From assembly GCF_000003605.2 (NCBI RefSeq), contig NW_003120921.1, positions 525,012 to 553,468 of the forward strand: DNA of 28,457 bases, written 5' to 3'. The notes below the pieces were generated by a model. That model did no database searches. It saw nothing but the letters and a program-made list of their open reading frames with translations, and was not told the origin of the DNA. The DNA is from Saccoglossus kowalevskii (lineage: Eukaryota > Hemichordata > Enteropneusta > Harrimaniidae). This document shows positions 5,691 through 28,457 of this stretch, one piece after another (the stretch's first letter is position 1; every line of letters starts with the position of its first letter). The position numbers and the translations under genes were made by a program.

Positions 5691-5840
5691 GTAAAGCTGG
5701 ACACTAAAAGTAATGGGAAGGCCTCCCGAGTAGTACACATACGTAATGTAGTTGCAGATGCTACTGAATCAGAAATCATAGCCCTCGGTGTGCCTTTTGG
5801 TCGCGTTACCAACATTTTGTTGTTGAAAGGTAAAAGCCAG
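5691..5840 (+). CDS. PTBP1: PTBP exon: start of RRM1
   Basis: 150 nt, 50 codons, phase 0 at both ends, acceptor TTTTTTTTAG and donor CAG|GTAAGT. It begins [20 protein letters not shown]; the lysine-rich start resembles the basic stretch just before RRM1 in other PTBPs. VVHIRN is the RNP2 strand, and [18 protein letters not shown] runs into RNP1, which the next exon completes. Confidence 0.95.
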
Positions 5841-8800
5841 GTAAGTTTACCATCATGTAGATTTATTTCAACTCATTGCGACTTGTGTTTTGTCTAGAGT
5901 GTGCTCTTCATTACCTGTTCAAGGGTCCTCACATTTCAGCTTTATTGTATTTAATAGGTGGGATACATTAGGACAAGTATTTGGGAAGGAGGGTGATATG
6001 TTGTTCTACTGTTGTAGTGCATGTTTTAGTGATGTATGAAATATTTGCCCACTTTTTAACCCTTTGAGCGCCAAATTTTTTCCCTGTAAAATTTTGCAGT
6101 TTTTATGTATTTTTCTCAATTTTCTAATAAATTCTGATCCAAATGGACATCATTCCTTATTGGCTGCTCGTCTAAATCAAAATTGTGGAAAAATTCAGAA
6201 AAAATTTGTTCATAGTGACAAAACTTTGGCACTCAAAGAGTTTATGGTAGTAATTAAATGCTTGTATTATCATTGACACATTCCAGGCTTTCTTGGAGAT
6301 GGAAAATGAGACTGCTGCGACGACAATGGTGAATTACTATTCGCATGTTACAGCCAACATCAGAGGAAGACCGGTCTATGTACAGTTTTCAAATCATAAA
6401 GAATTAAAAACAGAAAATGCACCAGCGCAACAGGTAATGTTTTATCTATTACATGTGTGTGGGTGGGTGGAAAGAAAAACAGTATTAATTCATTGTTTAT
6501 TAAAGTCATTGACATAGATCTCAAATTTATCTTTACTGGTTATCTAATTTCATATTGTTATCTTACTCCTTTGAGCTTGCGTTAGAATAATTTACTGCCT
6601 TATGGCGAAATTGGTAGGTATTGAATGATTAGGAAATAATGCTGAGAAATCAAGCATGTTTGTGTTACTAGGCTAGGTATCAGTCATTTATAAATATCCA
6701 TTGATAAAATGTTTTGTCTTTTTATACAGACTGCAGCAGCACAAGCAGCGTTAGCAGCAGCACAGTCCCTAATGCCACAGACACTGGGTGTACATCCAGG
6801 AGACACGCTAGGAGGACAGAACACTGTGTTGAGAGTCATTGTAGAAAATATGCTTTATCCAGTCACTGTAGATATTTTGCATCAGATTTTTTCCAAATTT
6901 GGTGCAGTGTTGAAAATTATCACATTCAATAAAAACAGTAAGTATAGTGTTATACTTTCAATCAGTTAATTGAATAGTTTTCATTTTGCTTGGGAGTTAT
7001 AATTATATTAATTTTCATGCATATTTTAAAAGGAGGATCTTTGTCTTCAATGCTTGTGGTTGATATGGTCCATGTTGCATCAAGTGTCCTCATAAACAAC
7101 GCAGGAAATTGTGTATCGGTGAAAACAGTTCACCATAATCTGTGATATTTGCATAATAATTCACTAATCTGTGTTGCTCTTCACTCTGCGACAAACACAT
7201 TTGTTGATTCATTGTTCTTGCTATTTTCCAGACACCTTTCAGGCCTTGATTCAGTTCGCAGATGCGGTCTCTGCCCAGGCTTCAAAACTGGTGAGTGTGC
7301 AGTTGTCAACTCCTGGGGGTACTCTAGATACATTCAAATGAATTGATTGGATGAATAGGAGAACACCGTATTCCCTCCTGAAAAATCAGCATGAAAATTC
7401 AAAATAAAACCAATCGTTTTTTGTGCAGATGCACTCAATATATGAGATCTCACAGTGAAAGGAAAATCTTATTCTATCCATGCATCAAGTTTATCTGCAT
7501 TTTCATGTGTTCATCTCCACAGTCGCTTGATGGGCAAAACATTTATAACGCATGCTGCACACTCAGAATTGATTATTCCAAACTGACTACCCTGAATGTG
7601 AAATACAACAATGACAAAAGCCGAGATTACACACGACCAGATCTCCCATCAGGTGATGGCCAGCCTCCACTTGACCCAGCAATGGCGTTTGGTAGGTCTA
7701 TTTATATCATGCTAGATCCGAATGAAACTGGTTTGAACTGGCATTATCCAGATACACCTGGTAGATAATATATTCATTATTAAATCGCATAATACTCTTC
7801 TCTTCTATTCTCTTTCTCTGTATCTACACCAACATCACACTTTTTCCATATTATTATTTTTCTATAAATAAATAAATAGTTGGGTGATTATTTTTTTTTT
7901 TATATTTTAGCCGGTATGTGACTAATTCAATAATTCGGGTGTTAAGGTTATTTTTTTGCTAGATGAGTGTTCAAAATGCCAGGTGGCGGGACCACAGCCA
8001 ACCCAATAAAAGTTCTGTGCTTTTCCTTCCACCTAGTAACGTAATATATATGTATCACAGCACTTGTTCTGTCTGTCAGTCTTTCTTAACAGTTATGCAC
8101 ACACATAATTTAATACCATGGAAACGTACAGAAACTAACATCGAATTTCTCTTTCAGCATAGTATAGTCACTTCAGGATGTACGTTTCCGAAAATATAAA
8201 AAAATTTGAGAACATTTTAGTAATTCTAAAGACTCCATTTACAAATATTTGTTTGTGAATCTGAATTTAATTTCAGTTGAAAAACAAAATGTCTGAAGCA
8301 TTGGCAATAATAGTGCCTAAAACGCATTAGGTTTGACCCTGTTATGTTAATAACCTGTGACGAGTGTCAGCAGATTTGAGCAAGTTGTATTATTTGCATA
8401 TTAAAAGACTCTCAAAGAGAGGGAGAAAAAAGTATTCAGTCACACTTACATCCTTGAGTGATTAATCTTTTAACAAACTTTTTAGACCCTTGAAGTTAGT
8501 TGTTTCTTTTTCAGACAGACCTGTTATCAAAAAATGTATATATATATATATATCAAATTTATGAATCTTTTACATTGTATATATGTTGTCATGTCAAAGC
8601 ACTTCATTCTCACTGCATACCCACCGATCAATTCTCTCATGTAGATGTATTTGTTTAGATTTATCCATTTCCTTGCCTCCTCCTCCTCCAGTATATAAAT
8701 GATATGGCTAACTGAACCCCTCACCCTGTATGTATTTGCAGGGAATGCAGCTCCAGGTATGCTGCCAACCCCAAACGCTGCTGCCATGGGTGCTGCTTTT

Positions 8801-11800
8801 GCTAACCCAGCATTGGCGGGATATGGTGCTACAGGTATACATCGTTTTCATAATAACCACTGTCAAAAAAAAAATGTGCTGTTACTACTACCTTCCCTGT
8901 TTCTCTTTCACTTTCTCTCATAGCTCAAGATAAAGATTTTTCTTTCTCTATAGGCAAGTCAGGACGAAGCCCTTCTTTTCATCTGTACTCATTTAATGTC
9001 TTATCTCTTCACTCTGTTGTATGTGTTCATTAGTTGCATGCTGTAGCTGCTTGTGTGGAACTCATTGCAGGTGCTGTTTATTCACCAGAATGTGTTAGTA
9101 GGTTTCATTTGATCTGATCTGGTTGCGACCGGTTCTCACCTGGTAGTCAGGCTGGTTTGAGCCTACTGTGAGATACAGATATTGGTGAATTATTTTTTTC
9201 ATGATTTGTTGCAACTAGTTTAAACCAGTTCAGACCGGTGTGATGAAGAACATTTGTCTATCTCGAACTGGTTTCTTCCACTTCTGTCTAGTTTGAGTAA
9301 ATTAAAAAAAAATAAAAAAAAATCTTTATTTTTGTCAAACATTGTATATTATAAATGATGATGTTCGTGTATAATTTTACAAATTGTGAAAAAATATATG
9401 TACGGGGAAAGAAGATTGTAATTAAATTGCCTTAAATGGTGGACAGTTGTTTATTTCAATGGCTAATTTATCTTTTTGTGCATTCTCATATTTCCGTAGT
9501 GCCTGGTCTGCCCGGGATGTACTCTATGCCAACCCACGTTTCTGCAGCAGCTGCGGCGGCAGGACTTCGTTATGCCGGACAGATGCAGCAGCAAGGATGT
9601 GTACTATTGGTCAGCAACCTGAACGCTGAGGTATGTCATGTCAGCAGATCACTCCAACTCCAACACGATGGTGATGCAATGGTTTTGTGGTAATATCGGT
9701 GGTGATTGTCTCTTAAAGAGTGATGGGTTAAACAATAATGCCTGTTTATATTTAGATATTACACCAAAAATAATTATGAAATTCCGACTAACTGGCACCG
9801 AACTGGGAAACAAAAGAGAGTGCATACTATCATATTTCTGACTTTTCGGTTTTAAATACGGGTCTTTATAGTGCTATCTATATTCTATATCATAGATTAT
9901 CATGTTAACATAGCAATAATTCATTAAGCTTGAATGTGCCTATACTACTTTACAATGCCCGTTGTTTTGTAGTCCTCATATTTCATCAATATAATTTTTT
10001 CTGCCTTTTTATGTCACTTTATTCCATAACTCTAGCTCCTTTATATTTAGTATCGTAAATATGACCTCATATGTATTGTTGCCTGTATATATATTTATAT
10101 TAATTGCTATTTCTCAATCATTTTCCCCATGCATTTATTTTTCTCTTTCTTCCAGTTAGCAATTTCATGTAAAAACTTATTCAAGATTTTCTTTTGTGCC
10201 TTATTATTTGTATTCCCCAAAACTTTTTCCCCCCATTTCCTGTAATTTTACAAAATTGTCTACATTAACAATGTCTTCCTGCATGATATGTGTACTCAAG
10301 AGTTTTCACCTCGCATCTGTAGATCGGCTCTCATCACCCGAGAAGCTGCCAGCAATCCCATAATGCTCTGTGATAACCCATGATTCCATGCTTCATCACA
10401 GCCATGCAATATATTCTTAGTACGGCTCGTTGCTACGAGTCGTATTTATGTTTCTTTTTTCATGAATATGAACTAATCATTGTGGATGTTAACATTCTAT
10501 CATATAATTATGCATGCGTGCTTTTAACAGCAGGGGAGGTGGCTTGCCTGTCATAGCACCTTATATCACTGTTCACATGTTATTTTTATTATTTTCCCTC
10601 ATATTATAGATCTGACCTCCCAAAGCATGAACACCTAACTCTTACATTCAAATGCATATCACAAGAAAATCTGTTTTATACCCCAGATTGTTTTTGTTTT
10701 CTCTCTCACTTTTTCTCTCAAATGATGTTTGCATGCTGCCCCCTTTTACATACATTCAATAACATGTAATACATTTGTGACTTTACAGTTTCTCTTTCTC
10801 AGCCGGATATCATCAGTATTGCTCCTCGTTGGCATGTCTCTTTAATCCCGCACACCGTTATTATATTATTTTGATTTCCTCTTAGTACTCTCTTTCTCTA
10901 GGTTACAGTATGTTGCCAAGCTGCCTGCTTTGCCCACCACACCACCCTGCTCTCAACTATGATCAATGCTTCATATTACACCTGAATTCATTGATAAATT
11001 AACAGCTTTTTATTATTATTTAATATACATGTACATGTATATGGAAAGTGTCAGAGTTCATACTGCTATAATTTGTCTTTGTCATTAAGTGACCATTTCG
11101 CTCGTAATTCAAAGGTAAAAACCTTCTTTTCATTTTTCCATATAAACTTAATTGGGCATATCATTCTGGTTCATTATCTATTTTCTGACAAATTAACGCT
11201 AGCTGCAGTTGTATACTAGTAGCGACAAATTCATTGTGTTTGTTACGTGGGAGGAGGCTCGGGTCGTTGCACTTTCCTCAGACATGCTAGTTATCATTTT
11301 TAATAGTTTTTTTATATATAAATATATATAACTATCATATTTATAATACATAAGTTATAATCGGAGACGTAAGCAGCTGTGTGTACCATCTGTTTCACAT
11401 TTATGTAGCCACCACTAACTAGCATGTCTGATGCGTCTGCTGTCTTGGAGATAACGTTTCGTAAATGCTTTAACAGTCCTCCAACTTTTTCTCGCTACTT
11501 CAAATTTATAATTTATCAAGATGTTCTTCCTTGCCCATCTAGCCTCCTACATAACACTCATCATTATAGCACTGTCAACTCTGGCATTCTTCATATCAAA
11601 AGCGTTACACAACATCAACTTACAACCAATTTATATATATTTTTTCTATAATTTGTATATATCAACAACCTTTTTATCCTTTTTTTTTCCCCCTCCCCAA
11701 ATGCTAATAATAAGTCCATATTTTTCACATGGAATGGCTTTGTATGAGCTGACACTGACCATCTCGATATTCATCTTTCCATTTCTCCTCTATGCCCTCT

Positions 11801-14800
11801 ACTACTGTGTCCTGTGTTATATTATTGTATTGCCTTACCCATCTATATGCCTTCTACCTGTGTTGTGTCGTACGTACGTACGTAGCTGGTCACGCCTGAA
11901 GTTCTCTTTACTCTCTTTGGTATGCACCCTTTTTACGTTATTTTTCTTGAGTCATTAATTTAACATAGTAGCTGTGTAGTAGTGATCTTAGCTTTTAGTT
12001 GATGTGTTTTAATCAATGAACTATTTATCTTGACTCTGCATGCTTAAGTTTGGACTAGCTGTGACTAGTTACTTGTCTATATTTGAAAATGATGAAGAAA
12101 AAAAAAAATAAGAGCAAAATATCTTGCATGCCCTCCAACTGCATGTTTGTTGTTTATTTTCTGAGTGAGGCTAAGTATTTTTAAGCTGCACTGTTTCTCA
12201 TTTTTTGTTTGTGTACTATATTTGCACTGTTTCCTGAACAGAAAACAGACAAAGTAGACGAAACAGAATTCAAACTTTGCATGATAACTATAAAAAAAAA
12301 AAAGGAAATACTAAAACTTCACAAATTCTATTTTGTTTTCATTCTGATTAACATAACAAAACAGCTGTGTAATATAATTAAACAAAACTGTCTAAATCAA
12401 GCTAATTTCTTGCACCATGAAAATGAGCTGTATCACTTGTGTATATATATACACATATATAATGCCTGCATGTTATAATTATACTTAGTCGTCAATATTT
12501 TCTCTAACTTTTCCGACAACAACAATTAACCATTTCTTATTATCTCGGTGTTATTTTATTTTATTATTTTAGTTTTTGTTTTGTTGGCCTTGCTGTTTAT
12601 TGCGTCTCAACTTTTGTCTTGAACAATGTTTTCTGTTTGTAAGCTGTTATATATACCAAATTATCTATCTATTCCTTAAAAAAAAGAAAAAAGATCAAAT
12701 TTGCGCTTGAGATTCAAATTCCAAAAAACCTTTTCTCAATTACTCTTCATTCCCTTTGTTTTTATTGTTTTTTCAACTATTTATTTTATTTATTTATTTC
12801 GGATTCATATGGTCAGTCTAGCTTATGGAATATTCAGAGGGAATTTAGCCTGTAATGTTCTTGTTTTGTTTTTTGCCGCTCAGCGTTGTTAATGCTAGCA
12901 AAGCTATATTGAAATGGTGTGATTTTCTTTTCTATAGGAGTGTATGGCGATGTACACAGAGTAAAAATAATATTTGCTAAGAAAGACACTGCTTTGGTGC
13001 AGTTAGCAGAACCACATCAAGCACAAACGGGTAAGGCATCGTCTGTTCATTGAGCGGGGTGTTTATTGCTACCATGTATATTCCATATGGTTCCATACTT
13101 GATGCATCAACGTATAAACATGCTGATAAAATGTGTTATGTATAATTTCAATTTTAACATACAGTTGGTATGATGATCTCTCTTTAATAAAGGAGTTTGC
13201 GCTTACATTGCACATGTTTATAAAAATGCGTTGTTTTCTTTTGCAGCTATGACTCACCTCAATGGCATCAAGATGTTTGGGAAGCCCCTCAGGATTACGC
13301 TGTCCAAACACCAACTGGTACAGCTACCGAAAGAAGGACAGCCGGTGAGTTTGATCTAATCAGTCTTCACTGTCATCAACCAATGTCTGTACAGTTTTTG
13401 TTGTAATCCCACTTTCACACAGATCTATAAATCTATGTGATATGTATGTCGTGACTAATGTTAGGAGTTTTATTGATTCCACAGGACGCAGGGTTAACGA
13501 AGGACTTTCAGAGTTCACCGTTGCATCGTTTCAAGAAACCAGGGTCAAAGAACTTCATGAACATTTACCCGCCCTCGGCGACCTTGCATCTTTCAAACAT
13601 TCCGTAAGTGTGCAATAATATCACCTACTCTTAAATACGAGGACAAAAAGCATCTCAAAAGTCAAACCCTCTCCTATAAGTCGGGCTAAGCACTTATTTA
13701 AGCTATTAGGTGTCAATGACATGTATAAATACTTATGTATAATGTCCAAAAAAAATTTGTTTCACCTTAACCTGTATCTTCAAAAATCCTTGTTTTATGT
13801 CCAACATGTAGGTCTTCAAAATCAGTTGAGAAATGAATCTAGCGAGTCGGTCATTCCTTTATTAATGAATACATTAACAACTTTAAAACAATGATTGAGA
13901 TGGGATTTAGACGATTTGGCAGATGTGATTTAGTTTGAAAGTATATTTGGATGCTTTGTCACATGTGAAATCTGTCTCGTTCTCATTAATGAGCATCAAT
14001 GGTACATTTCAACTCACCAGCAGTGGTGTAATTTTCATTTTTTTGTTTTACAGTCCCAATGTAACAGAGCAAGATATCACAAGTGCCTTCACCAGACATG
14101 GATCAGTCAGTGCTTTTAAATTTTTCCAGTAAGTTTTTCTTTCAAGTATATTACTTTGCATATTTTTTAACGTCCGTGAAAAGTCAGCTAAAACATGTTT
14201 TTGATTACTTAAAGTTGCTCTCTGAAATTATTCATATAGCTGTATTGAGGTCTTAGGACTGTTACGTGAAATAATTGGAATTGCTGTGAATACATGAATG
14301 TTTCAATCATTTCCAGTGCAATTGTATCATTTTACCATTTAATTGTGTTCAAATTTCAATTGCTAACAATTTTAAATTGTTTTCCCATTCATATTGATTC
14401 ATGAAGATGCAGCCACCATTAATGTGGGATAAAGGGAAATTCAGATGAACCATTAAATACTTCCCAAAATTTCACAAAATAGTCTCAATAAACTTATAAT
14501 AAAAATTGAATTGCAAAGCTTGGGGAAACCAAAACAGTTCTACTTTAGATTAAATTATTTGTGTGATTTACCCTAATGTGTCATTCCATCAATTTCTTAT
14601 TACAGGAAAGACCGCAAAATGGCCTTAATCCAGATGGATTCAATAGAAGAGGCTGTCACAGCGCTTGTGGTGAGTATCGAATGCGATTAGTCGCTTTCCT
14701 CTTAATCTGATTGTCACCATTGTTTTGTGGGGAAATTATGTTATTAAACCCTTTCGGCTGACAGCTCACTTGGCAAAATATACTACAGTACATTTTATCC

Positions 14801-15120
14801 AGAACATCAAACACGCATACTGGGGTTCTGAGCATGTCCTAATTGCAATGAGAAGGTAAATTTTACGCAGGATAACTAATGCAGCCTCATCTAGTTAGAA
14901 TTAATGCTTGATCAATAAAAAATGTAGTTATTTTAACCGTCAACACACTTTTGTCATTTTATACATGTCTATTATTCAGAGATCCAATATTATATTATTT
15001 CCCAGTAGGTCATGATTGTGATCTTACAATGTTTTTTGATTTCCTCTGCAGGCAATGCACAACTACCAACTGAGCAACTCAAGCCACTTACGAGTGTCGT
15101 TTTCTAAGGCCACTATCTAG
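5691..15120 (+). CDS. PTBP1: Polypyrimidine tract-binding protein (PTBP1/2/3, hephaestus orthologue), 14 exons, N-terminus missing
   Basis: Joined exons: 5691-5840, 6287-6433, 6730-6937, 7232-7290, 7523-7691, 8742-8834, 9500-9630, 11886-11919, 12938-13030, 13247-13344, 13485-13603, 14054-14128, 14606-14669, 15052-15120. The sum is 1509 nt: 502 codons and TAG, unbroken, all with GT/AG ends. Four RRMs are visible: RRM1 about residues 13-90, RRM2 131-210, RRM3 306-385, RRM4 422-500 (numbered from the first codon at 5691). Diagnostic blocks are [95 protein letters not shown] and [10 protein letters not shown] at the C-terminus. In animals this family binds CU-rich RNA, mainly represses exons, and shuttles between nucleus and cytoplasm. 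The vertebrate PTBP1 protein is about 531-557 residues, so only a short N-terminus is lacking. Whether it is called PTBP1, 2 or 3 is arbitrary for a single invertebrate orthologue. Confidence 0.95.
5841..6286 (+). other. PTBP intron
   Basis: 446 bp, GTAAGT donor and ATTCCAG acceptor. An open frame at 6064-6276 has no PTBP similarity and no splice support. Nothing else is seen. Confidence 0.85.
6287..6433 (+). CDS. PTBP1: PTBP exon: end of RRM1
   Basis: 147 nt, 49 codons, phase 0 to phase 0. It opens with AFLEMENE, completing the RNP1 strand of RRM1, and contains [19 protein letters not shown] and the hallmark [12 protein letters not shown]. Donor CAG|GTAATG. The exon matches the end of vertebrate RRM1 (AFIEMNTEEAANTMVNYY) at the same boundary. 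Confidence 0.95.
6434..6729 (+). other. PTBP intron
   Basis: 296 bp, AT-rich, donor GTAATG and acceptor TTTTTATACAG. No other feature is seen. Confidence 0.85.
6730..6937 (+). CDS. PTBP1: PTBP exon: Ala-rich linker 1 and start of RRM2
   Basis: 208 nt, phase 0 in and phase 1 out, donor A|GTAAGT. It begins with an alanine/glutamine stretch ([12 protein letters not shown]), the counterpart of the vertebrate linker, then [45 protein letters not shown] is RNP2 of RRM2. Linker 1 here is shorter than the human one. Confidence 0.95.
7232..7290 (+). CDS. PTBP1: PTBP exon: middle of RRM2
   Basis: 59 nt, phase 1 to phase 0, acceptor CTATTTTCCAG and donor CTG|GTGAGT. With the carried base it reads [20 protein letters not shown], the RNP1 strand and helix of RRM2 (human: FQALLQYADPVSAQHAKL). 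Too short to stand out as an ORF; found by family alignment. Confidence 0.94.
7523..7691 (+). CDS. PTBP1: PTBP exon: end of RRM2
   Basis: 169 nt, phase 0 to phase 1, acceptor TCATCTCCACAG and donor G|GTAGGT. It contains [20 protein letters not shown] and [20 protein letters not shown], the most conserved block of the family. The NIY segment holds the tyrosine position that in mammalian PTBP1 RRM2 contacts the Raver1 peptide (from memory), and it is conserved here. The exon ends LDPAMAFG, which leads into linker 2. Confidence 0.96.
7692..8741 (+). other. PTBP intron upstream of the 93-nt cassette
   Basis: 1050 bp. It contains pyrimidine-rich runs (TCTTCTCTTCTATTCTCTTTCTC near 7797-7820, and TCCTCCTCCTCC near 8678-8690 close to the acceptor), plausible PTB-type contact sites, and a TA repeat near 8537-8553. 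The acceptor is TGTATTTGCAG. No coding sequence is seen. Confidence 0.75.
8742..8834 (+). CDS. PTBP1: PTBP in-frame cassette exon in linker 2 (vertebrate exon 9 counterpart)
   Basis: 93 nt, phase 1 at both ends, so inclusion or skipping keeps the frame. It encodes [31 protein letters not shown], an Ala/Pro/Gly-rich linker between RRM2 and RRM3. The donor GTATAC is weak. Human PTBP1 exon 9 (26 codons, also phase 1/1) sits between the same two exons and is alternatively spliced; that this one is skipped is inference. Confidence 0.9.
8835..9499 (+). other. PTBP intron with CCGGTT/AACTGG motif cluster
   Basis: 665 bp. CU-rich tracts lie just after the donor (near 8890-8955). From about 9115 to 9285 short related words recur in both orientations (GACCGGTT, CTGGTTTGA, AAACCAGTTCAGACCGGT, GAACTGGTTT). 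Near 9302-9330 are A-rich runs. No coding sequence is seen. Confidence 0.65.
9500..9630 (+). CDS. PTBP1: PTBP exon: end of linker 2 and start of RRM3
   Basis: 131 nt, phase 1 to phase 0, acceptor TTTCCGTAG and donor GAG|GTATGT. It reads [20 protein letters not shown] and onward, then [18 protein letters not shown]. The alanine run and CVLLVSNLN (RNP2 of RRM3) match vertebrate PTBP1 exon 10, which ends [10 protein letters not shown] at the same codon boundary. Confidence 0.95.
10421..10444 (+). other. Intronic stem-loop
   Basis: TACGGCTCGT, a TGCT loop, then ACGAGTCGTA. As RNA it forms a 10-bp stem with one G-U pair. It lies in a slightly GC-richer patch (about 10305-10450) of an otherwise AT-rich intron. 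Function unknown; it could be chance. Confidence 0.4.
11757..11885 (+). promoter_or_regulatory. Weak 3' splice site and CU-rich PTB-type sites before the 34-nt exon
   Basis: CU-rich words (CATCTTTCCATTTCTCCTC, GCCCTCTAC, CCTTCTACC) cover about 11757-11860. The last bases before the exon are a TACG repeat (about 11870-11884) closing on TAG, which breaks the usual pyrimidine tract next to the AG. A suboptimal acceptor with upstream PTB sites is what a PTB-repressed exon looks like in mammals. Binding here is inferred, not shown. Confidence 0.6.
11886..11919 (+). CDS. PTBP1: PTBP 34-nt switch exon (vertebrate PTBP1 exon 11 counterpart), RRM3 helix 1
   Basis: Exactly 34 nt, phase 0 in and phase 1 out, reading [12 protein letters not shown] with one base of the next exon's glycine; human is RVTPQSLFILFG. 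Donor G|GTATGC; acceptor ACGTAG. The exon contains the CU-rich run TTCTCTTTACTCTCTTT, so it may itself be bound by the protein. Leaving it out joins 9630 to 12938 and shifts the frame to a stop at 12962-12964, more than 50 nt before the next junction and with five junctions remaining, so the skipped mRNA should be a target of nonsense-mediated decay. This is the known autoregulatory device of mammalian PTBP1 and PTBP2. It is invisible to simple ORF calling. Confidence 0.93.
11920..12937 (+). other. Intron downstream of the 34-nt exon
   Basis: 1018 bp, donor GTATGC. Pyrimidine-rich near the donor (CCCTTTTT, TTTTTCTTG), A-rich runs near 12099-12110 and 12293-12304, a TTTA repeat near 12779-12799, and an acceptor TTTTCTTTTCTATAG. 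The frame at 12209-12478 is low-complexity and unsupported. Confidence 0.75.
12938..13030 (+). CDS. PTBP1: PTBP exon: core of RRM3
   Basis: 93 nt, phase 1 to phase 1, donor G|GTAAGG. With the carried G it reads [31 protein letters not shown]; human [39 protein letters not shown] is RNP1 of RRM3. Read in phase 0, as after skipping of the 34-nt exon, it gives ECMAMYTE and then TAA. Confidence 0.95.
13247..13344 (+). CDS. PTBP1: PTBP exon: end of RRM3
   Basis: 98 nt, phase 1 to phase 0, acceptor TTTTCTTTTGCAG and donor CCG|GTGAGT. It reads [33 protein letters not shown]; human [32 protein letters not shown]. It includes the last strand of RRM3 and the start of the short linker to RRM4. Confidence 0.95.
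13485..13603 (+). CDS. PTBP1: PTBP exon: RRM3-RRM4 linker and start of RRM4
   Basis: 119 nt, phase 0 to phase 2, donor CC|GTAAGT. It reads [52 protein letters not shown] is the conserved linker which in mammalian PTB helps pack RRM3 against RRM4. TLHLSNIP is RNP2 of RRM4. Confidence 0.95.
13604..14053 (+). other. PTBP intron
   Basis: 450 bp, donor GTAAGT, acceptor TTTTTTGTTTTACAG. AT-rich; no other feature seen. Confidence 0.85.
14054..14128 (+). CDS. PTBP1: PTBP exon: RRM4 helix 1 and following strand
   Basis: 75 nt, phase 2 to phase 2, donor CA|GTAAGT. It reads [20 protein letters not shown] and FKFFQ; human PSVSEEDLKVLFSSNGGVVKGFKFFQ. The residues are family-typical except in the variable loop. 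Confidence 0.94.
14129..14605 (+). other. PTBP intron
   Basis: 477 bp, AT-rich, acceptor TTTCTTATTACAG. Nothing else is seen. Confidence 0.85.
14606..14669 (+). CDS. PTBP1: PTBP exon: RRM4 RNP1 and helix 2
   Basis: 64 nt, phase 2 to phase 0, donor GTG|GTGAGT. With the carried bases it reads [20 protein letters not shown] and [12 protein letters not shown] is the RNP1 strand of RRM4, identical to human. Confidence 0.95.
14670..15051 (+). other. Last PTBP intron
   Basis: 382 bp, donor GTGAGT, acceptor TTTCCTCTGCAG. No further feature. Confidence 0.85.
15052..15120 (+). CDS. PTBP1: PTBP terminal coding exon
   Basis: 69 nt including TAG at 15118-15120. It reads [20 protein letters not shown] and TI then stop; human [21 protein letters not shown]. 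The C-terminal SFSKxTI end is the family signature, so the stop is natural and not a truncation. Confidence 0.96.
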   Translation, partial: AMHNYQLSNSSHLRVSFSKATI

Positions 15121-17180: not shown

Positions 17181-18405
17181 CTTGACATTGTAATTTTGAT
17201 TAGAAAACTTTAATTTTGCACAAGTGAAGAGGGAAGATGTCAAAACTATTTGTATATGGAAATTGGTTTTCATGTTCAAAGTTGTGGAAATCAGCAGTGT
17301 AATCTTATTGGGGGCCTTTAATTTAGACATTTTAAAATGGTTGGCTAACTTTTACTAGCTATAACAATTGACTTTTTCTCGTAACTTTTTTTCTTATTTT
17401 TTCTAGATTTTATGTTAGAACTCTTTCTTGTGTGTTTCTTACTATCTCTTTATCTAACTTGTATTATCGTTTAACTGATAATTTTAGCGTTTATCCACAA
17501 AAGTTGATTTGTAGTGACTTAATAATTTGTGATGCTGTAGATATTGTGTATGTGACACATTTTTTTGTTTTATAATTGTTAGCTTAAAACTACGATTGTT
17601 GCTAAGTTTATTATCTGCCTATTTTGTAAGGGTATTTTGACGATCATTAAATCATTACTGATACTTCAACCGCTTTCTCTTTTCATTCTTTAATTGTTGA
17701 CTTTCCAACTTCTTCTTCTCTCTTTTCCTCTTCTCGATCTCCCCGAAACCTTCAGTCAAATGGCCAGTCACGATAATACATGTAATATTAATAATTACTT
17801 TAAATTTTGACGCAAATAACAAAATAACAAAAATGGAATTACAGAAATCCTGTACTTTTTAGTTTGACTGATGGTCTACAGAGGATCAAATCCACTAATT
17901 TTTTTATTTTATTTTTTTTTTTGAACGAGTACATATCATCATACAAGGTAAAGCTTATTGGGTATAAAACTGAGGCTTTTGTCAAATATGTTTCTTTTGC
18001 TTTGTTTTTAGTTAGTGATCTATAATCTAACAGAAGATTCAGATTCTTGTGTATTTATTCATTAAGAGATGCAAAAAGGAGAAAATAATGAATGAATTCT
18101 ATTATGTACAAAGGAGGGTGTTTTTTAAAAAAAAATACTTTTGAAAGAACCCAGCAATGTTTTATAAGAAGCATTATAGTTTGGTGAAATGCCTGAGGCT
18201 GTAAAAATCAAAAACAAATTCTGTTTTGTGAAACGAAAAGCTAGTCTATCTCAATCTATGCGAATCTGGTCTGTAGTTATTGCTTGAGAGCTGATGGAAT
18301 GAAGGCAAAGAATAAGAAATAAATATGGTTATTTGATTTCTTTTGTAAACTTTTGTTGTCAATGTTTGGTTTATTTAAGATCGGTGACCCTTGTATTGTG
18401 TGAGT
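17181..18405. other. AT-rich non-coding DNA downstream of PTBP
   Basis: Long T-runs, a CU-rich tract near 17669-17745, and no recognisable coding or RNA gene. It could still be 3' UTR if the AATAAA at 18318 is used. Confidence 0.5.
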
Positions 18406-22599: not shown

Positions 22600-24690
22600 G
22601 TATTTATAAAGTCACTAATGAAATTGTAGACCCCACTCCACCTTTGCTCAAAAAGGGACCCATTCAAGCGACATATATATCAATAGAGATTTTTTACTTC
22701 AAAAAACTATTTAACCCGCATAAATCTTATAACAAAATAAATGATATAGGGAATGAACAAAATAGAGAACAAAATATAGGGAATAAAAGATGAACTAGAT
22801 GGTCCTATCCTTAAAAATGAAATAAAGCTAGCAATTACACTTATGAAAACAGGAAAAGCTTCGACTGAAGATAAAAGGTGCAACGGAATATTTATATATG
22901 GTCAATGTTATTTATTAAATGCTAAACATAAAATATTCAATATTGTATACTCATCAAATAGTTTCCCAAAATCATGGAATTAGAGCTTAATCGTTCCGAT
23001 CCATGAATCGGGATCAAATCCTTCAAATTATTAAAAAAACTCAGAAAACTTGGCACAAAAATACTTGGAAAACTCTTCACAAAAATACTAAACACAAAAC
23101 TACTGGCAATCTCTTTATTTTAAAGTCAACTATCAATAAATATTTACACCATAACAATGGAAGTTCTGACAACTCAACCTGAGGCAAACAAACTACATGT
23201 ATACGCCGCATGCCTCGATCGTTGATTTGACAAAAGCATTTGACACTGTTTGGCCAAATACTTGGTTTGGAATAATGCTTTATATCTAAAATTACTTGAG
23301 TATGGTGTGAACGGTAAAATGTGTAAAATCGTTAAAAACATGTATAGCGACGTCTCGTATTAGATAAAAACTAATTGGGAGCTTATAACCTAATTTTTAT
23401 CAAACTCCGGGTGAAGCAGGGGTGTAATCTAAAGCCAAACACTATCCAATATTTTTATTAATAATCTTCCAGGTGTTTGAGGTCAAAGTGCATGTAAACC
23501 ATGAACTCTGTCTAACACTCCAGTTAGCTGTCTTCTCTATGCAGAAGATATCATGATACTTTCTTAAACAAAACTGTAGAAGGCTTGCAGATGTCTTGAT
23601 AAACTATCAGAATACACGAATAAATGGAAATTGACTGTAAACGCAGAAAAAAACAAAAATTATGGTGTTCAATAAATCAAATAGATTTTTAAACAATAAC
23701 AAATTTTTTGAAGGAAACAAAATTAATCAAACTAATTTTTTTAATTACCTTGGGGCTGTACTCAGAAACGGAAAATCTAAAGAATGAAGAGACCAAAAGA
23801 CCATGTTATAGACAGTTAAATATAAACAAAAGGTAAAAATAACTACATTTTTATCACTATTCGATATACCGATCCGACAAATATTAGTTTATGGCAGTGA
23901 TATCCGTGAAGATGAAAGTAATTACAAATCTGCCATCGAGGATATACACCTAAGCTACTGGCGGTTTTTACTTTGCCGCTGGCGTCTCAAAAAATACTCC
24001 CAAAATGAGCATCAACGGAGACAAATGATAAAATAATACACAATGAATACAAATATTACCCTTCTTAAAGAAGCTGCATATTTAAATTAACAGTAAATTG
24101 TACAACGAAGTGGAAACCCAACTTGCTAATATCAATCAATCAATCAGGATTTATTAACACTGAAAAAGTAATAACAAACCCCAGTCGAAAATTTTGGACA
24201 AACACATTATAACATCTTTTGAATTAGTTTGAAAAACGATATCAATGATGACATTAAGAATAACGTCAAAGAAAAAAAACCCCAGAGAATATACAGATTT
24301 TTCAAAAAGATAGTCAGACTGGAAAAATAAATTGGCAGACATACAAAACCTAAAACTTCAATTGAATGTGCGACTTATGTACTGCCATGGGAATTGCAGA
24401 CGAAACACGCTTCGTAATGTCATGTAAAACATACGAACAACAAAGAAATGTTTGACAACGCAGCAAAAGTAATTAAAAATGTCACTGTTTTGACGAAAAC
24501 CAACAAATTCTCCGTAATCATGAGTTCAGATATAACATTTCTTAATATCGTGTTAGCAAAGTACATAGACAAATGTTTATGTACTAAGACAGCTGTTTCC
24601 AGACCGAACACAATAAGCCCTGTCTATATAAAATTAAAAACAAATTTCCGTTATGCCATATTTTCTGAAATACTTAACCTTTAACCTCAG
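22600..24690 (+). mobile_element. Decayed non-LTR retrotransposon (LINE), RT and C-terminal zinc-finger parts
   Basis: Reverse-transcriptase signatures appear in order across all three plus frames: LDGPILKNEIKLAITLMKTG (about 22795), a SLIVPIHESGS-like segment (near 22985), FILKSTINKYL (near 23115), VDLTKAFDTVW (23221-23253), YGVNGKMCKIVKNMYSDVSY (near 23300), CLLYAED (23529-23549), AEKNKN with MVFNKSN (near 23645), NYLGAVLRNGKS (near 23745), and ILVYGSDI (near 23880). The C-terminal finger is CDLCTAMGIADETRFVMSC (24369-24425), followed by LAKYIDKCL near 24550. Frame changes and internal stops are many, and the catalytic YADD reads YAED, so it is a dead copy lacking the 5' endonuclease. I cannot assign the clade with confidence. 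Confidence 0.85.
24131..24146. repeat. ATCA microsatellite
   Basis: Four ATCA units inside the decayed LINE, probably replication slippage after insertion. Confidence 0.6.
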
Positions 24691-27508: not shown

Positions 27509-28457
27509 CAAATAATTGAAAGATATTGAAATAATGGTGAGATAATTGAAAGATATTGAAATAATGGTGAGATATTTGAAAGATATTGAATTAATGGTGA
27601 AATAATTTTAAGATATTGAAATAATTGAAAGATATTGAAATAATGGTAAATAATTGAAAGATATTGAAATAATGGTAAAATAATTGAAAGATATTGAAAT
27701 AATGATAAAATAATAGGTGAAATAATGATGAAATAATGGTGAAATAATTGAAAGATATTGAAATAATGATAAAATAATAGGTGAAATAATGGTAAAATAA
27801 TTGAAAGATATTCAAAGTTGAAATAATGATGAAATAATGGTGAAATAATTGAAGGATAATGAAATAATGATAAAATAATGGTGAAATAATTGAAAGATAT
27901 TGAAATAATGGTAAAATAATTGAAAGATATTGAAATAATGATAAAATAATAGGTGAAATAATTTAAAGATGTTGAAATAATGGTAAAATAATTGAAAGAT
28001 ATTGAAATAATGATGAAATAATGATGAAATAATGGTGAAATAATTGAAAGATATTGAAATAATGGTAAAATAATTGAAAGATATTCAAAGTTGAAATAAT
28101 GATGAAATAATGGTGAAATAATTGAAAGATAATGAAATAATGATAAAATAATGGTGAAATAATTGAAAGATATTGAAATAATGGTAAAATAATTGAAAGA
28201 TATTGAAATAATGATGAAATAATGATGAAATAATGGTGAAATAATTGAAAGATAATGAAATAATGATAAAATAATGGTGAAATAATTGAAAGATATTGAA
28301 ATAATGGTAAAATAATTGAAAGATATTGAAATAATGATAAAATGATAGGTGAAATAATTGAAAGATGTTGAAATAATGGTGAAATAATTGAAAGATATTG
28401 AAATAATGGTAAAATAATTGAAAGATATTCAAAGTTGAAATAATGATGAAATAATGG
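27509..28457 (+). repeat. AT-rich minisatellite with higher-order structure, running off the window
   Basis: Basic unit of about 30 bp, GATAATTGAAAGATATTGAA plus ATAATGGTGA, mixed with shorter GAAATAATGAT units. A marker word TTCAAAGTTG recurs at 27811, 28084 and 28429, giving longer periods of 273 and 345 bp, a higher-order repeat. The unit is the reverse complement of the block at 25095-25284. Open frames here on the minus strand are by-products of the stop-free repeat. Confidence 0.92.

Follow-up and report, generated by a model that had tools for sequence, protein, structure and literature searches.

Structure of the PTBP gene

We analysed a window of 28,457 nucleotides (nt) from the hemichordate Saccoglossus kowalevskii (contig NW_003120921.1, positions 525,012 to 553,468 of the forward strand; coordinates below count from the first letter of the window), which carries a PTBP gene on its + strand. 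At the centre of the analysis is a 34-nt exon of this gene (11886-11919), a candidate for a switch exon whose skipping would direct the mRNA into nonsense-mediated decay (NMD) and by which PTB could control its own level. Requiring GT…AG introns and a single continuous reading frame, we modelled 14 coding exons from position 5691 to the stop codon at 15118-15120, the 34-nt exon being the shortest of them and adjoining the longest intron:

5691-5840, 6287-6433, 6730-6937, 7232-7290, 7523-7691, 8742-8834 and 9500-9630, + strand: upstream coding exons of RRM1, RRM2 and the linker (splice sites, frame, phmmer matches to RRM1 and RRM2)
9631-11885, + strand: intron 5' of the 34-nt exon, at 2255 nt longer than each of the other 12 in the model (gene model)
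11886-11919, + strand: 34-nt putative switch exon, coding for a piece of RRM3 (gene model, phmmer alignment to PTBP1)
12938-13030, + strand: exon after the putative switch exon, 93 nt, begins GVYGDV; out of frame if the 34-nt exon is skipped (gene model)
13247-13344, 13485-13603, 14054-14128, 14606-14669 and 15052-15120, + strand: last five coding exons, ending in the normal stop (gene model)

The modelled product of 502 residues matches human PTBP1 across its whole domain series, with phmmer E values against the PTBP1 chains of 1.4e-38 for RRM1, 8.6e-63 for RRM2 and 3.1e-87 for RRM3-4. Membership of the PTBP family is borne out by the alignment of the four RRMs with PTBP1 and PTBP2, and Pfam RRM families also match the product. 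A whole-genome search with the C-terminal 227 residues revealed no other PTBP gene, as all seven matches at E ≤ 0.01 fall in the gene of the window. The N-terminal coding exon or exons were not found in the 40 kb upstream by a crude search with a few short peptide motifs.

The 34-nt exon and the predicted result of skipping it

In its context the exon reads ...cgtacgtag / CTGGTCACGCCTGAAGTTCTCTTTACTCTCTTTG / gtatgc, beginning in phase 0 and ending in phase 1. Its 11-residue peptide occupies the VTP..LF.LF position of RRM3 and aligns without gaps to human PTBP1 RVTPQSLFILFG (RVTPQSLFILF), with 7 of the 11 residues identical (phmmer, chain 2adc_A). Joining position 9630 directly to 12938 would add eight wrong codons and then a stop:

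12962-12964, + strand: premature stop TAA of the skipped mRNA (predicted 9630/12938 join)

This stop lies 66 nt before the end of its own exon and is followed by five junctions (13030/13247, 13344/13485, 13603/14054, 14128/14606 and 14669/15052). NMD generally follows when the distance from a premature stop to a later junction exceeds 50-55 nt, and the position of the stop in the skipped form accords with this rule. All of this agrees with an earlier reading of the same DNA (the original prediction), which had described an exon of exactly 34 nt, as in mammalian PTBP1 exon 11 and PTBP2 exon 10 (mammalian length according to PMC1940037), coding for the same piece of RRM3 as in PTBP1, and had derived the same wrong codons, stop and downstream junctions; our phase model reproduced them.

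Neither the frame shift nor the length says much about regulation. Skipping would shift the frame for 8 of the 12 internal exons, 11886-11919 included, and a frame shift upon skipping is therefore little evidence of regulation. The age of the two introns, placed as they are within a conserved RRM, could suffice to fix the exon at 34 nt in the absence of regulation, and equal exon length is weak evidence as well. An arrangement of mutually exclusive exons was considered and dropped, as a pattern search of the translated flanking introns gave no convincing duplicate of 11886-11919.

Weak splice sites, AG exclusion zone and candidate branch points

Stronger evidence than frame shift or length comes from three features that the original prediction did not contain, namely the weak splice sites, the layout of the branch point and the choice of codons. 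The first two are made up of the following elements:

11866-11885, + strand: weak 3' splice site tgtcgtacgtacgtacgtag (lowest leave-one-out score among 14)
11920-11925, + strand: weak 5' splice site TTG/gtatgc, weakest of 13 (5 of 9 consensus positions)
11749-11883, + strand: AG exclusion zone that contains pyrimidine-rich runs (135 nt, more than at any other of the 14 modelled 3' splice sites)
11753-11759, + strand: CACTGAC, predicted as the distant branch point through its A at 11758 (-128) (score 8.8 with a hand-written matrix)
11747-11753, + strand: second distant candidate AGCTGAC, overlapping CACTGAC, A at 11752 (-134) (start of the AG exclusion zone)
11832-11838, + strand: proximal rival candidate GCCTTAC, A at 11837 (-49) (score 5.8, weaker)

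Both splice sites of the exon are the weakest of the gene. Its 3' splice site has a leave-one-out score of -0.4, compared with 2.8 to 13.7 for the other 13 exons, and its 5' splice site matches the consensus at five of nine positions, compared with six to nine at the remaining 12 sites. The 3' splice site (11869-11884) lies in a tandem repeat of four cgta units instead of a pyrimidine tract, which is unusual for a conserved exon.

The AG exclusion zone before the exon spans 135 nt, compared with 15-101 nt before the other 13 exons, and in a scan of the 200 nt that precede each of 13 exons no heptamer scored higher as a branch point than CACTGAC at -128. The exon is hence preceded by a large AG exclusion zone with a strong predicted branch-point consensus near its 5' end. 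Such a combination is rare in the surrounding DNA: when about 68 kb of DNA surrounding the gene were surveyed on both strands, nine of 5,698 AG gaps proved to be at least 135 nt long, and only the gap before the 34-nt exon has a branch-point score of at least 7.4 in its first 30 nt. Controls were taken from 143 matches to kinase exons in the same genome, which gave 79 loci with 400 nt upstream each; four without a candidate site were dropped, leaving 75. Zones of at least 100 nt precede four of these 75 and one of at least 135 nt precedes a single control with a weak and doubtful site, while none of the 75 has, as the top branch-point candidate of its zone, a heptamer that scores at least 7.4 and is more than 100 nt away.

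The AG-free tract might nevertheless be incidental, and the proximal GCCTTAC at -49 the site in use, which would be compatible with PTB repression of the exon and would concern one part of its mechanism. A proximal candidate does exist (score 5.8), and base composition alone gives such a gap somewhere in an intron of this size about half of the time. Against this, the distant candidate scores 8.8 and, like the human site, stands at the zone's 5' end, mutating a site at -51 of the human exon was without effect (PMC1431707), and the combination of zone and branch point is unique among the surveyed gaps. We therefore consider an incidental tract rather unlikely, and CACTGAC the better candidate for the branch point.

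CU motifs in the exon and its flanks

The third feature is the sequence of the exon itself, which is the densest 11-codon stretch for PTB-like motifs in the modelled coding sequence, with eight motifs compared with three in the next separate stretch. Given the peptide and the codon usage of the gene, this excess has a p of 0.0011-0.00135 for six CU tetramers and of 0.0004 for YTCTYY, and the same six-tetramer test on 44 control blocks gave p ≤ 0.01 in none and p ≤ 0.05 in one. Upstream of the exon, 250 nt contain 14 runs of ten pyrimidines, compared with 0-6 at the other exons. An enrichment of PTB sites in the flanking introns was likewise considered and dropped, as the tetramer counts there are not above those at the other exons of the gene.

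These data also bear on the possibility that the exon is skipped and the mRNA decays under the control of another factor, or as splicing noise at a weak microexon, with no feedback by PTB. A 34-nt exon with weak sites on both sides would be prone to this, and the unexceptional tetramers of the flanking introns are in line with it. In contrast, the CU motifs within the exon exceed the expectation from codon usage, and the equivalent exon is skipped in a PTB-dependent manner both in mammals (PMC1940037) and in Caenorhabditis elegans (PMC4876481). We regard skipping without PTB feedback as very improbable.

Two more dense CU clusters lie elsewhere in the window, at 10751-10930 and 17591-17850, where the motif hits per 150 nt rise to 20 and 28, respectively (99th percentile of the window, 17). 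The first is in the intron before the 34-nt exon, about 1 kb upstream.

Comparison with known exons of the PTB family

The autoregulatory loop of PTB is established in mammals, where PTBP1 exon 11 and PTBP2 exon 10 have 34 nt (PMC1940037). Human PTBP1 exon 11 has an AG exclusion zone of 381 nt with a UACUGAC at -351 that was verified by mutation (Gooding et al, 2006; PMC1431707). The same source gives a zone of 438 nt and a predicted branch point at -389 for PTBP2, and a zone of 590 nt and a predicted branch point at -566 for Fugu. Of the 67,334 human exons in its set, 838 have zones that reach 100 nt or more, and 165 have zones that reach 150 nt or more. The hemichordate exon resembles the mammalian exons in its 34 nt, the same RRM3 segment, the frame shift upon skipping and the large zone with a UACUGAC-like site toward the 5' end. 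It differs from them in the size of the layout, with a zone of 135 nt against 381 and 438 nt and a candidate branch point at -128 against -351 (verified) and -389 (predicted), so that its zone stays below the 150-nt cut for manual study in PMC1431707. The mammalian exons differ also in kind of evidence, as the hemichordate exon is known from its sequence and skipping and PTB dependence are predicted here.

The closest invertebrate counterpart is exon 11 of C. elegans ptb-1, a 34-nt cassette exon coding for part of RRM3. As smg-2 animals showed, NMD destabilises the forms that skip it, and no such forms were detected in a ptb-1 mutant; its position and size were described by the authors as highly conserved with mammals (PMC4876481, 2016). 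Both exons have 34 nt, lie in RRM3 of an invertebrate PTB gene and lead to a premature stop upon skipping. In C. elegans, skipping, NMD and dependence on PTB-1 were demonstrated by reverse transcription polymerase chain reaction in mutants, whereas for the hemichordate they are predictions (PMC4876481). A further source lists a C. elegans ptb-1 event that is marked as lacking a premature stop and is nearly unchanged in smg-1 (0.06 on a log scale; PMC2265522).

The original prediction had presented the loop, with an exon size held to the base far outside vertebrates, as new. This central novelty fails because a 34-nt switch exon of an invertebrate PTB gene had been published in 2016 (PMC4876481). 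The part that could be new is the putative distant-branch-point layout outside vertebrates: the main text of PMC4876481 contains no word starting with “branch” and no “AG exclusion”, and a literature search with limited reach into subscription journals turned up none that describes a distant branch point for a PTB exon in invertebrates.

Human ROD1 (PTBP3) provides two further comparisons. Its exon 2 also has 34 nt, an AG exclusion zone of 168 nt, and an inclusion that goes up on knockdown of PTB and nPTB; its exon 10 is the positional equivalent of 11886-11919 and has an ordinary branch point, without evidence of skipping from expressed sequence tags (both from PMC1940037). By analogy, exon 10 suggests that a gene can retain the exon yet lack the loop. 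The hemichordate exon could accordingly be constitutive, its 34 nt merely reflecting two old introns in a conserved RRM, with regulation lost or never present; a shift of frame would arise upon skipping of most internal exons anyway, and ROD1 exon 10 may be such a case. Unlike ROD1 exon 10, however, the hemichordate exon combines a 135-nt zone and a top branch-point candidate at -128 with CU-biased synonymous codons and splice sites weaker than any others in its gene, and we think it unlikely to be constitutive.

Proposed mechanism

Taken together, exon 11886-11919 is probably a conserved, PTB-repressed autoregulatory NMD-switch exon of the sole PTBP gene found, as judged from the sequence features described above. 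When PTB is scarce, the exon would be included and the full-length protein with four RRMs produced. When PTB is plentiful, it would bind the CU-rich sites in the exon and in the preceding 135-nt tract and thereby block an exon that is already hard to define, with its 34 nt, its weak sites on both sides and a branch point that may lie about 128 nt upstream. The spliceosome would then join 9630 to 12938, the frame would shift to the stop at 12962-12964, and NMD dependent on the downstream exon junctions would remove the skipped mRNA, so that PTB would be held at a set level. The sequence itself shows the exon, the frames, the premature stop, the later junctions, the weak splice sites, the AG exclusion zone, the branch-point consensus and the CU-biased codons. 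What mammals and nematodes do leads us to infer that PTB binds, that the exon is skipped, that the mRNA decays and that feedback results, and use of the distant branch point would be part of the same scheme. The loop of the original prediction, in which PTB removes an exon from its own mRNA and NMD follows, stands as the best prediction and is strengthened by the splice-site, branch-point and codon features; its novelty outside vertebrates does not stand.

Several points weigh against PTB self-control through this exon. Besides the common frame shift, 6 of the 75 kinase-exon controls score below the exon at the 3' splice site, and the selection of control splice sites relied on their score in the vicinity of a domain match instead of on transcripts. 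The scan for branch points used a hand-written matrix, and the exon was already in view when motif sets and thresholds were fixed. A Markov sequence of the composition of the intron itself gives a comparable AG gap at about 1% of AGs, and 53% of such sequences, at the length of this intron, contain at least one; the zone before exon 7232 of the gene measures 101 nt, and four of the 75 controls reach 100 nt as well. Taken alone, TCTT shows a weak codon effect (p 0.03), and the longest pyrimidine run shows none (p 0.20). Finally, PTB-like tetramers in the flanking 250 nt are unexceptional, with 12 upstream and 7 downstream compared with 4-17 and 1-23, respectively, at the other exons of the gene.

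Other observations in the gene, the window and the genome

Two further exons of the gene deserve mention. Exon 7232-7290 in RRM2 would shift the frame if skipped; its AG exclusion zone measures 101 nt, yet a conventional branch-point candidate lies at about -25 (7127-7290 covering exon and zone). The 93-nt exon 8742-8834 in the linker between RRM2 and RRM3 is in frame and is a possible cassette exon as judged from its sequence; 3' of it (8861-9050) lies a CU cluster that is among the densest of the window, with 23 motif hits per 150 nt. We take this exon to sit in the region of the regulated exon 9 of mammalian PTBP1. Beyond the gene, an open stretch at 23641-23784 resembles a retrotransposon fragment, judged by eye, and an open stretch of 306 residues on the minus strand (27511-28428) is without a Pfam match at E ≤ 0.001.

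Contig C4830 (17037 bases) is a mitochondrial genome with COX1, in which ND6 lies on the strand opposite to COX2, ATP6 and CYTB (these four named by eye). Compared with one mammalian-type COX1 chain, the ATA codons of COX1 fall on Ile in five of nine cases (Val in two, Met and Leu in one each), ATG on Met in 17 of 19, TGA on Trp in seven of nine, and the single AAA on Lys. By comparison with known sequences, ND1 and COX2 presumably have AAA at Lys positions and AGA at a Ser position. In the mitochondrial code tables, AAA for Lys speaks against the echinoderm code, and the codon set fits hemichordates; an echinoderm origin of the genome was rejected for this reason.

Implications for the PTB family

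A probable case in a non-vertebrate deuterostome would join those of mammals and nematodes and fits a bilaterian origin of PTB self-control. We raise only tentatively, and with some doubt, that the whole layout of 34 nt, distant branch point, AG-free tract and CU-biased codons is older than the vertebrates and was already present, and retained ever since, in the last ancestor that hemichordates share with chordates or earlier; if so, the exon would be among the oldest distant-branch-point exons described. With a candidate distant branch point in an invertebrate, the ancestry of the mechanics of repression, beyond that of exon length, becomes testable.

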